Assembly: GCF_000337795.1 (NCBI RefSeq)
Contig: NZ_AOLP01000017.1
Span: 62,001 to 126,000 of the forward strand
Length of the DNA stretch: 64,000 bases
DNA from: Haloferax denitrificans ATCC 35960
GTDB taxonomy: Archaea; Halobacteriota; Halobacteria; Halobacteriales; Haloferacaceae
Reading direction: 5' to 3'
The notes under the pieces were generated by a model. That model did not search any database, was not told the origin of the DNA, and saw only the letters and a list, made by a program, of their open reading frames with translations. Position 1 is the stretch's first letter. Each line of letters opens with the position of its first letter. Below, piece by piece: positions 6,837 through 62,034 of the stretch. The translations under genes were made by a program, and so were the position numbers.

Positions 6837-8141
6837 ATGCGAAACCGAACGTACACGGCCGACGCCGAGCCCGGTGACACGGTCACCGTCGCCGGCTGGG
6901 TCCACGAAATCCGTGACCTCGGCGGCATCGCGTTTCTGATTCTCCGGGACACCTCCGGCAAGATTCAGGTCAAGTTCGAGAAAGACGAGATGGACGACGA
7001 CCTCGTCGAGACGGGTCTCGGCGTCCACCGCGAGAGCGTCATCTCCGTGACCGGCGAGGTCGCCGAAGAGCCGCGCGCGCCGACGGGCGTCGAGGTCACG
7101 CCCGAGAGCCTCGACGTCATCGCCGAGGCCGAGGCACAGCTCCCGCTCGACCCCTCCGGCAAGGTCGACGCCGAGCTCTCGACGCGCCTCGACAACCGCA
7201 CGCTCGACCTCCGCAAGGACGAAGTGAAGGCCATCTTCGAGATTCGCGCCGAGGTCCAGCGCGCCGTCCGCGAGCAGTTCCGCGACCTCCGCGCGACCGA
7301 GATCAACACGCCGAAAATCGTCGCCACGGGGACCGAAGGCGGCACCGAACTCTTCCCCATCACGTACTTCGGCAAAGAGGCGTTCATGAACCAGTCGCCC
7401 CAGCTGTTCAAACAGCTGATGGTCGGCTCCGGTCTGGAGCGCGTCTTCGAGGTCGGCCCCATCTTCCGCGCCGAAGAGCACAACACGCCCCGCCACCTCA
7501 ACGAGGCGACCTCCATCGACTTCGAGTCGGCGTTCATCGACCACACGGAAGCGATGGACGTGTGTGAGGCCGTCGTCACGGCCGCCTACGAGGCCGTCGA
7601 GGAGAACTGTCAGGACGAGCTCGAAGCGCTCGGTCTCGAAGACGAGTTCGAAGCGCCGTCCGGCGAGTTCCCGCGGCTCACCTACGAGGAGGCCATCCAG
7701 CGCATCAACGCCACGGGCGAACTCGACGAACAGCTCGTCTGGGGCGACGACCTCCCGACCGAGGGCGAGAAGGCGCTCGGCGAGGACGTCGGCGAGCACT
7801 ACTTCATCACCGACTGGCCCAGCGAGATCAAGCCGTTCTACATCAAGGACCACGACGACGACGAGACGCTCTCGACGGGCTTCGACATGATGCACCCGAA
7901 CATGGAGCTCGTCTCGGGCGGCCAGCGTGAACACCGCTTCGACCACCTCGTCGCCGGCTTCGAACAGCAGGGTCTCGACCCCGACGCGTTCGAGTACTAC
8001 ACGAAGATGTTCAAGTACGGCATGCCCCCGCACGCCGGGTTCGGCCTCGGCGGCGAGCGGCTCATCATGACGATGCTCGGACTGGAGAACATCCGAGAGG
8101 CTGTGCTGTTCCCGCGCGACCGGCAGCGCCTGTCGCCCTAG
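6837..8141 (+). CDS. aspS: Aspartate--tRNA(Asp/Asn) ligase
   Basis: This is a 434-residue class IIb aminoacyl-tRNA synthetase. The N-terminal OB-fold anticodon-binding domain starts [20 protein letters not shown]. The catalytic domain follows with motif 2 ([28 protein letters not shown]) and motif 3 near the end ([34 protein letters not shown]). The length and lack of bacterial insertion fit the archaeal enzyme. In organisms without AsnRS this enzyme is non-discriminating and makes Asp-tRNA(Asn) for the amidotransferase; that is likely here but cannot be seen. The ATG at 6837 is favoured over earlier in-frame codons because it gives the normal N-terminus. The last ten codons plus stop are copied several times downstream. 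Confidence 0.96.
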
Positions 8142-8477
8142 GCGACGGCGCAACACGAGCGCGGGAGCAACGAGCAAATCTTCGATTTGCGAGTGAGTTC
8201 CCGCGAGACAGACAACGCCTGAGTCCGTAGACGAAGGCGTTTCTGCGAGTGGGTGCTCGTCGGACGAACGACGTGAGTCCGACGGTGTTCCCGCGAGACC
8301 GCCAGCGTCTCTCTCCGTAGAGACGCACCTGACGAGTGGGAACAGGGAGCAACGCCGCGCGTTGCGAGTGAGTTCCCGCGCGACCGCCAGCGCCTGAGCC
8401 CATAGGGCGAAGACCTGACGGACCAACGAGACGAGCGCACGCGAGTCTCGTCAGCCCGCCAGCGCCTGTCGCCCGAG
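8109..8477 (+). repeat. Array of five aspS 3'-end copies separated by hairpin units
   Basis: The 33-bp end of aspS ([10 protein letters not shown] plus TAG) is repeated at 8109-8141 (in the gene), 8198-8230, 8288-8320 and 8373-8405. A partial fifth copy at about 8445-8477 has TAG changed to GAG. All four complete copies encode exactly the same peptide and stop, yet seven of ten codons vary synonymously; Ser is tcg, agt, tct or agc. The 51-57 bp spacers carry hairpins whose arms differ in sequence but keep pairing: gcaaatc/gatttgc at 8174-8190, gtcggac/gtccgac near 8257-8284, gcaacgc/gcgttgc near 8350-8366, and acgagac/gtctcgt near 8426-8451. A second hairpin spans most copy ends, for example gtcgcc/ggcgac and gcgtctct/agagacgc. 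The copies are not in frame with aspS. Confidence 0.9.
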
Positions 8478-8500
8478 GCGACGGCGTATCCGACGACGCG

Positions 8501-25119: not shown

Positions 25120-25164
25120 GAATCGAACCGAGACGCGAACGTACAATCGAACCGAGACGCGGAC

Positions 25165-25977
25165 CTACTGTTCTACGGCGTTCGCGGCGGGACTGGCTCC
25201 CGCCTGCCGCGTCGCGTCCGCGGTGCGCGTGGTCGCGTAGCCGATGGCCGCGAAGGGAAGCGAGAGGAGCGTCGCGGCGACCGCGAATCCGACCGCGAGG
25301 CCGACGGCCACCGGGTCGAAGCCGGCGGCCTCCGCGGCCGGCGGGAAGTACGACCACGCGGGGACGGCGAACGCGAGCGCCGAGACCGCCGCGCCGAGGC
25401 GGAACCGGCCGCGGGCGCTGGCGACGCCGAGGGCGTAGCCGACGGCCAGCGGGAGCGCCAGCGTGGCGGTCCGGGCGACCGCGGGCCCGGCGACGAGCGA
25501 CGCGACGGCACTGGCGAGGGCCACGGGTGCCATCGCGTACAGCGACCCGGTGACGACGCCCTCGGCGTTCGAGCGGCCGGCGAAGACCGCACCCGCGGCG
25601 GCGAGGAGCGCGACGCCCGCGCCGGCGACGACGACCGGCCGGTCGCGCGCGAAGATAACCACGAGCGGGACGGTCGCCGAGGCGACGAGCGCGAACGCGA
25701 TTTCGGCGGTCGTCCGCGTGTCCGCGGGGTCACGGTGGGCGACGAAGGCGCGGAAACTCCCGGCGGCGACCCACGCGAAGGCGGCGAACAGCGCGGTCGA
25801 AAGCGGCGCGGCCCGGCTGAGATACGAGGCGACCCCCCGACCCGTGTCGAGCGCCGACTGGCCCAGTTGCGTCGCGAGGCGGACGGTCGTCTCGGGGTCG
25901 GCCGCGAGCGCGACCAGCCCGACGAGGCCGGCGAGCGCGAGCGGCGACAGCGACGCGAGAAGGGCGCGGCGGCGCAT
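25165..25977 (-). CDS. Multi-pass membrane protein, Ala-rich, unknown
   Basis: The 270-residue product is almost all hydrophobic, with about eight to nine helices rich in Ala, Val and Gly. It starts MRRRALLASLSPLALAGLVGLVALAADPE, which may be an N-terminal anchor or signal. No conserved motif is seen and the family is unknown. It is convergent with truD and divergent from the DUF2103 gene; the shared promoter region of about 125 bp carries an A/T-rich patch (gaatatgttt) near 26006. Confidence 0.6.
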   Translation of the reverse strand: MRRRALLASLSPLALAGLVGLVALAADPETTVRLATQLGQSALDTGRGVASYLSRAAPLSTALFAAFAWVAAGSFRAFVAHRDPADTRTTAEIAFALVASATVPLVVIFARDRPVVVAGAGVALLAAAGAVFAGRSNAEGVVTGSLYAMAPVALASAVASLVAGPAVARTATLALPLAVGYALGVASARGRFRLGAAVSALAFAVPAWSYFPPAAEAAGFDPVAVGLAVGFAVAATLLSLPFAAIGYATTRTADATRQAGASPAANAVEQ

Positions 25978-33788: not shown

Positions 33789-33881
33789 ATGTGTTCAACT
33801 ACTATGTCGGAACCTACCACACCGACGGAGGATAGAGTAAGTCGTCGCGAGACGGCTGGCTGTGAAATTCGACGGTTCTAA
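33789..33881 (+). CDS. Short upstream ORF (25-30 aa), possible leader peptide
   Basis: An ORF of 30 codons from the ATG at 33789, or 25 from 33804 (MSEPTTPTEDRVSRRETAG...), lies between the TATA box and the synthase gene. It ends at TAA 33879-33881, 22 bp before the GTG proposed as the start of the synthase at 33904, and also overlaps an alternative GTG at 33862. The position directly after the promoter and the typical haloarchaeal codons suggest it is translated. It could tune expression of the downstream gene in the manner of a leader peptide, though no run of Leu/Ile/Val codons is seen. Confidence 0.45.
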   Translation: MCSTTMSEPTTPTEDRVSRRETAGCEIRRF

Positions 33882-36764: not shown

Positions 36765-37096
36765 GGCGCGACGAGACGCGCCGCTCGAAATGTTGTGGCC
36801 GCGGAAAAGCGCCGAGGGTGAGATTTGAACCTCACTCGCTCACTGCGTTCGCTCGCTGGTTCAAATCTCGGGTCGTCGCACATCCTCGTCACGCGGGGCG
36901 AGAGACATGAACGTCTCTCGCGGGGTGACGTTCGGAAGAAGCGCCGAGGGTGAGATTTGAACCGCAGTCGCTCCCGTGCGGTCGCTCCTTGATTCAAATC
37001 TCAGGAGTCGTACACGCGGCCACGGAGTCGCGGCGCGACCAGACGCGCCGCTCAGAACATTGTGGCCGCGAGAAGCGCCGAGGGTGAGATTTGAAC
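36765..37096 (-). repeat. Array of tRNA-Ser 3'-end copies with hairpin units
   Basis: The 22-bp 3' end of tRNA-Ser (T loop, 3' arm of the T stem, 3' acceptor strand and discriminator) is present three times in the same orientation: 37075-37096 (in the tRNA), 36941-36962 and 36809-36830, spaced 134 and 132 bp. Each extra copy is followed by an inverted copy of its first ~11 bp (gagatttgaac paired with gttcaaatctc), making long hairpins. The flank just beyond the genuine tRNA (37032-37074) is also found beyond the outermost copy (36765-36808) with few changes, each containing a ggcgcg/cgcgcc hairpin. Another hairpin (cgagagac/gtctctcg) is at 36899-36920. Confidence 0.88.
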
Positions 37097-37160
37097 TCAC
37101 GTGTCCGAATGGACAGTAGATTTCGAATCTACCGCCTTGGCCGGGCTAGGCTACCTCGGC
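37076..37160 (-). tRNA. tRNA-Ser (anticodon CGA)
   Basis: The 85-nt minus-strand sequence folds as a class II tRNA. The acceptor pairs GCCGAGG with CCTCGGC plus discriminator G. The anticodon arm is GTAGA-TTCGAAA-TCTAC with CGA anticodon (reads UCG). A long variable arm TGTCC-ATTC-GGACA identifies serine, and the T arm is GTGAG-TTCAAAT-CTCAC. CCA is not encoded. Partial copies of its 3' end lie downstream. Confidence 0.96.
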
Positions 37161-60040: not shown

Positions 60041-60061
60041 CCTCGGGGTCAAGCCCCGAGG
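60041..60061. repeat. Left-end hairpin of the IS element
   Basis: A perfect hairpin has 8-bp arms CCTCGGGG/CCCCGAGG around a 5-nt loop TCAAG. An identical copy is at the right end. It lies just beyond the tnpB stop (60073), where the guide RNA of TnpB systems normally ends. Confidence 0.88.
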
Positions 60062-60072
60062 CTTCCCGTGGT

Positions 60073-61968: not shown

Positions 61969-61989
61969 CCTCGGGGTCAAGCCCCGAGG
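61969..61989. repeat. Right-end hairpin of the IS element
   Basis: Identical to the left-end hairpin (8-bp arms, loop TCAAG). It follows the tnpA stop by 18 bp and marks the end recognised by TnpA. Confidence 0.88.
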
Positions 61990-62034
61990 CACTCGGCCTG
62001 CTCCGCCTGTAGACTAACTCTGCACTCGGCCTGC

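Follow-up and report, generated by a model that had tools for sequence, protein, structure and literature searches.

The window analysed here, a stretch of 64,000 nucleotides of contig NZ_AOLP01000017.1 from Haloferax denitrificans ATCC 35960 (genome G000 in the comparisons below), contains a gene for tRNA-Ser(CGA) with a MoxR-type AAA ATPase gene on one side and, on its 3' side, an array of short repeats; the array runs into a convergently oriented nitroreductase gene (Pfam PF00881) at that gene's 3' end. The 23-nt 3' end of the tRNA, TTCAAATCTCACCCTCGGCGCTT, occurs in three exact minus-strand copies, one of them within the tRNA gene, at spacings of 134 and 132 bp, an arrangement absent from shuffled sequences. 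These copies are the sole ones in the genome, even when three mismatches are allowed, and none lies 5' of the tRNA gene. The description given in the first-pass annotation (three copies, 132-134 bp apart, only on the 3' side) is therefore correct, the identity being exact over 23 nt.

The same annotation had placed an inverted half after each extra copy, which is indeed what the plus strand presents; on the tRNA strand the inverted arm lies 5' of its copy, and the two form an R'-loop-R hairpin. The full order on the tRNA strand is tRNA body, R (the 3'-end copy), trailer hairpin A, R' (the inverted T-arm), a GA-rich apex L, R, trailer hairpin B, R', L, R and a remnant of trailer A (Table 1). 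The reappearance of the tRNA trailer beyond the last copy, also noticed earlier, corresponds to 87% identity between 37032-37070 and 36765-36803. The array intervals contain no plausible integrase gene, as had been claimed; their open reading frames do not exceed 93 aa when nitroreductase read-through and opposite-strand frames are excluded, and there is no integrase near the array.

Table 1. Components of the tRNA-Ser(CGA) array and of the sister array at aspS, with positions in the window
Feature	Position	Strand	Evidence
tRNA-Ser(CGA) gene; T-loop G^TTC is the module boundary	37075-37160	-	ARAGORN, Rfam RF00005
R0, functional tRNA 3' end (T-loop TTC through discriminator, followed by CTT), with which module 1 begins	37073-37095	-	exact repeat
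Trailer A, long hairpin CGCGGCCAC...GTGGCCGCG, inner stem GGCGCG/CGCGCC	37008-37072	-	DNA fold -24.1 kcal/mol, z -3.8
R', inverted T-arm of module 1, TGAGATTTGAATC	36991-37003	-	sequence comparison, fold
L, GA-rich hairpin apex of module 1	36963-36990	-	sequence; units at other tRNAs have this frame as well
R1, first additional tRNA 3'-end copy, with which module 2 begins; G 36962 precedes TTC	36939-36961	-	exact 23-nt repeat
Trailer B, hairpin GTCAC..GCGAGAGAC gttcat GTCTCTCGC..GTGAC	36873-36938	-	DNA fold z -3.2; homologous trailers in relatives
R', inverted T-arm of module 2, GAGATTTGAACC	36858-36869	-	12/12 complementary to R2 side
L, GA-rich apex of module 2, AGCGAGCGAACGCAGTGAGCGAGTGAGG	36830-36857	-	sole window match to GAGCGAACNNNGTGAGCGA
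R2, second additional tRNA 3'-end copy	36807-36829	-	exact 23-nt repeat
Further trailer A remnant after R2, into the nitroreductase 3' end	36765-36806	-	87% identical to 37032-37070
Sister array at the aspS 3' end: M1 (functional end, TTC 8109), M2 (8198), M3 (8288), M4 (8373), further M1-like end (~8455-8490)	8108-8490	+	Pfam PF00152

A blind scan of the window for units of repeat plus inverted arm, under an exact-match rule that misses the aspS array, revealed no excess over shuffled sequence besides the Ser array. Elsewhere in the window, identical 22-nt palindromes CCTCGGGGTCAAGCCCCGAGGC lie 1.9 kb apart at 60041-60062 and 61969-61990, where shuffles expect none; a pair of adjoining 24-nt direct repeats, AATCGAACCGAGACGCGAACGTAC, with 92% identity to each other, occupies 25121-25168, and a leuA-Halobacteria RNA (RF03001, 70.9 bits) is located at 33821-33873.

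The tRNA-Ser(CGA) locus was matched in all 15 Haloferax genomes, and the comparison of unit numbers in relatives that the first-pass annotation had proposed gives zero to three modules. Read outward from the tRNA, the array is ABA in G000, G008 and G002, BA in G001, G011, G009 and G004, AA in G003, A in G010, G013 and G014, and B in G006, G007 and G012, while G005 contains no module. The next ORF at the module-free locus (L018) resembles, by eye, an IS200/IS605-type OrfB (TnpB). The locus of G009 equals that of G013 and G014 with one B module added exactly between the tRNA end and A, and the downstream flank is the same. On a tree of the flanking DNA of the 15 genomes the array states require at least eight changes, where shuffled labels require 9.6 on average; this indicates almost no phylogenetic memory. 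The outcome that would have spoken against the earlier reading, namely the same three copies in all relatives and a known small RNA inside the units, was not observed. A known RNA gene within the units is rejected, since Rfam finds the tRNA alone at the unit loci, apart from sub-threshold chance matches over the tRNA itself.

Empty and filled sites are found at other tRNA genes. At tRNA-His, the tRNA end in G001 runs directly into TCTTCTCTACATTTCGACCGG, while in G000 one complete extra module is followed by the same flank; two trailer types are shuffled among species at this gene. The tRNA-Leu(UAA) and tRNA-Glu(CUC) sites are empty in G001 and filled in G000, and the tRNA-Thr(GGU) site is empty in G000 and filled in G009, with the same flanks in each pair; for most loci these differences are unpolarised as gain or loss. 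Comparison of orthologous loci thereby demonstrates the presence or absence of units and their reshuffling. At tRNA-Leu(UAA) of G005 the gene has TTCAAATC and the displaced copy has TTCGAATC; the latter is how the intact gene reads in G000 and G001, and in G005 it is followed by their flank. The functional 3' end of this tRNA gene has thus been replaced, as the comparison of the three genomes documents.

The main rival explanation invokes no dedicated machinery: the arrays would be ancient palindromic repeats 3' of genes that grow, shrink and invert through replication slippage and template switching and are reassorted by ordinary homologous recombination between strains. Several observations agree with it. 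In G009 a complete unit at the tRNA-Tyr locus (L175) is duplicated in tandem, exactly over 83 nt, which looks like plain slippage. Between G008 and G014 the R' of tRNA-Leu(UAA) is altered at several bases together so that it pairs perfectly with R, as template switching within the palindrome would give. The apex at tRNA-Ser(UGA) in G000 (L071) is the inverse of that in G001, a genome of the same species, with all 39 of 39 bases matching and a single gap; the apex can therefore flip between the inverted arms, and its inversion is established by this alignment. The Ser states, taken alone, could all be reached from ABA by deletions only, which also counts against the reading preferred below. Pure tandem duplication, of which tRNA-Tyr of G009 is one clear case, is rejected at most loci because the inserted trailer is unlike the flank and absent from the empty strain. 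Slippage, template switching and inter-strain recombination clearly also act on the arrays, and they may be sufficient alone; as the whole explanation they are considered possible, though rather doubtful.

The 3' side of tRNA genes was surveyed in three Haloferax genomes for copies within 450 nt. With a strict score, a downstream copy of the gene's own 3' end was found at 24 of 50, 23 of 53 and 25 of 55 tRNAs, and upstream copies were found at none; a looser threshold gave 29, 23 and 27 tRNAs in the same genomes, so that the figure for G000 is 24-29 of 50 genes depending on the threshold, and the upstream controls gave 0-1. At the loose threshold the ends of other tRNAs were matched at 4-9 of about 50 loci because T-loops are alike, and the stricter threshold was therefore used for the counts. 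Beyond what the first-pass annotation had in view, the array at tRNA-Ser(CGA) is one case of a genome-wide and haloarchaea-wide occurrence, in which the inverted arm and the hairpin apex are recurrent parts of the unit.

The copies mostly begin at the T-loop; in 63 of 64 units a G directly precedes the TTC at which the copy starts. The inverted arm sits between trailer and copy, with the GA-rich apex next to it, and is often fitted to its own tRNA; for example, AATTGAA is found at tRNA-His and tRNA-Gly(CCC), whose T-loops read TTCAATT. The match of R' to its own tRNA is strictly the best in 26 of the 64 units, a fit that is clear in many but not in all. Comparison among units establishes both this anatomy and the recurrent boundary. 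The genome contains six instances of the apex pattern CGAGCAA..TTGCGAGTGA, in five tRNA units and at aspS, and the reversed pattern, used as a control, has no match. What different loci have in common is confined to apex L and stretches of some trailers. A second class of copies (class II) starts 6-7 nt after the TTC, and its apex tends to lie on the opposite strand.

A longer apex type (L302, L310, L314, L339, L345, L360 and others) is present in several haloarchaeal families and contains the asymmetric motif AGTCGC(A/G)...(A/C)CGTCT; it has no Rfam match, and the motif looks like a recognised structure. Two further loci, L025 and L033, comprise T-arm-copy units without a full tRNA alongside, and are possibly orphaned arrays carried on elements.

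The array at aspS, which encodes aspartyl-tRNA synthetase and is the one protein gene surveyed for units, provides the strongest test of end exchange, and its alignments the strongest evidence that ends are exchanged. The last 30 nt of the gene fall into four module types across the 15 Haloferax genomes, with a divergence of 5.9% between same-module pairs and 25.7% between different-module pairs, and despite module type the C-terminal 10 residues are identical in all 15 proteins. In the 30 nt just upstream of the TTC, same-module pairs diverge by 10.4% and different-module pairs by 9.7% (permutation P 0.69), and divergence in the gene body is likewise independent of a shared module (P 0.58). 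Since upstream divergence is equal with or without a shared module, the exchange ends at the TTC codon or in its immediate vicinity. One aspS boundary is displaced inward by about 14 nt and the class II copies start later, so the junction is not wholly fixed. The aspS array of G014 equals that of G008 with one gene-proximal M2 added, and the displaced M1 end is still as in G008, so that replacement of a functional end is shown at this gene too.

These data are difficult for slippage and homologous recombination. The ends of neighbouring aspS modules are about 70-80% identical over 30 nt and would be poor substrates for homologous recombination, yet the joins are sharp, and the upstream divergence is independent of module type. 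No single ancestral array could have given rise by deletion to all of the module orders seen (such as M1-M2-M3-M4-M1, M4-M1-M3-M2 and M2-M1-M4-M1). Moreover, a nearly identical apex (36 nt, 97%) is found both at aspS and at tRNA-Ala, which slippage is unable to produce.

In a species-wide genome collection the exact apex pattern was found in 13 stretches, each lying either 3' of a tRNA or where a partial tRNA-like sequence ends; they belong to Haloferax, Halalkalirubrum, Halorarius, Halogeometricum, Halonotius, a Haloferacaceae MAG and strain SHRA6. The apex hairpin of module 2 of the Ser array is likewise found 3' of tRNAs in six other haloarchaea. Among sampled tRNAs of six further haloarchaeal genomes, copies were found at 7 of 17, 1 of 17, 7 of 15, 6 of 16, 1 of 16 and 3 of 16, with none upstream, and a seventh genome had a copy at one of three; all seven sampled genera thereby contain at least one unit. 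No unit was found at 27 tRNAs of seven genomes from another order of the same phylum, outside the haloarchaea.

The recurrence of the hairpin frame across haloarchaea and the strong folds of the trailers (Table 1) could reflect a functional RNA, the trailer and hairpin being selected for tRNA 3' processing, termination or stability, and the copy acting as a decoy or processing signal. This is considered improbable: half of the tRNAs lack a unit, orthologous loci vary in its presence within one species, no Rfam family matches, and the same unit lies 3' of aspS, a protein gene whose end is recoded by the modules.

The tRNA 3' ends are also the classic target of integration, normal-size integrated elements are known in Haloferax (PMC7921747), and partial tRNAs are usually so explained, a survey of tRNA fragments attributing the partial pieces to element integration (PMC9897764). 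Each copy might then be the attR site of a decayed tRNA-integrated virus or plasmid. This disfavoured explanation has little probability: uniform units of 80-150 bp with a common anatomy occur at half of the tRNAs, the arrays are free of integrase remnants, and the viral contigs, phages and plasmids searched contained no unit and no free form. Selected RNA function and decayed proviruses both fit the data poorly. The first-pass annotation had proposed stepwise capture of minimal elements at a tRNA attachment site. The stepwise gain and loss of gene-less units is supported, as seen in the variable number of modules, the empty and filled sites and the displaced old ends; an integrase as captor is so far unsupported, since none is encoded nearby, no unit was found in the virus, phage and plasmid records searched and the integron-integrase model TIGR02249 gave no match whatever in G000. 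Above its cut-off this model had no match in any of the 15 Haloferax genomes, and no recombinase tied to the arrays was found.

The units share features with several known systems. Like tRNA integrative elements (proviruses and IGEs with XerC/D-type integrases), they restore the gene 3' end and are flanked by direct repeats of the 3' part of the tRNA, as the empty/filled pairs and displaced ends demonstrate; unlike them, they are ~80-150 bp long, have no genes or integrase, occupy half of the tRNAs and contain an inverted copy of the target. The PATEs and IS200/IS605-type MITEs of haloarchaea are similarly short and non-coding with terminal hairpins (PMC3119063), but the ends of the present units are bases of the local host gene, vary with the target and include no fixed shared terminus. 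In Haloferax gibbonsii LR2-5, 11 partial tRNAs were counted, several of them directly beside the full gene (PMC7921747), and the main text of that report does not treat them as recurring units, as arrays or as exchangeable ends. The open-access literature yielded no earlier description of the units, the arrays or end replacement; one is possible, since most subscription journals lie outside this scope.

The closest likeness is to integrons and to CALINs, which are clusters of attC sites without an integrase. In both cases arrays of short modules, variable in order and number, lie beside a fixed site, the differences are often next to the anchor, each module is closed by an imperfect hairpin with strand asymmetry, and the join is at a G^TT step. 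Gain, loss and reordering of modules beside an anchor site were all found here. However, the IntI match is missing, the core is G^TTC with C rather than R as the fourth base, unlike the attC core G^TTRRRY / RYYYAAC, there is no cargo gene, and the modules are anchored at a tRNA or aspS 3' end, which every module itself carries. Given the missing integrase and attC consensus, the arrays are not called an integron; the likeness is one of behaviour. Integrons are described from archaea (PMC9668308) in a report whose main text makes no mention of haloarchaea.

It is marginally probable that the units are cargo-free cassettes bearing the gene's own 3' end, which are gained, lost and reordered at G^TTC by exchange via a hairpin. 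The module, of ~80-150 bp, consists of R, a trailer hairpin, R' and the GA-rich apex L, where R copies the end of the host gene, beginning with the T-loop TTC, continuing through the last base and closing with CTTCT. The gene-proximal module would serve as the working 3' end, and older ends would be pushed downstream by events at the G^TTC junction. A single strand folded into the R'-L-R hairpin may be the substrate of exchange, the join at G^TTC would presumably need few shared bases, and the candidate agent would be a trans-acting recombinase or strand-transfer activity. Palindrome-templated correction may uphold the fit of R' to each gene. The element would be a minimal selfish or neutral passenger, harmless because the replaced end is carried by the element itself. 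Hairpin-linked cassette exchange fits the sharp boundary between weakly similar ends, gene-proximal replacement, free reordering, and the apexes and some trailers shared between unrelated genes. The stronger proposition, that haloarchaea possess a dedicated hairpin-dependent cassette exchange, parallel to integrons and independent of the integron integrase, in which the cassettes are host gene 3' ends only and the ends of essential genes are repeatedly replaced, is plausible but falls somewhat short of probable.

If cassette exchange of this kind does operate, the 3' ends of essential genes across an archaeal class would be exchangeable parts, recoded wholesale with the product unchanged, and many of the 'partial tRNAs' of haloarchaea would be explained. 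Gene trees of tRNAs and synthetases, as well as strain typing, would be confounded. Even under slippage and template switching the arrays would represent a fast, class-wide repeat system at tRNA genes; under cassette exchange they would constitute a natural minimal recombination system that could be tested in the laboratory strain Haloferax volcanii.
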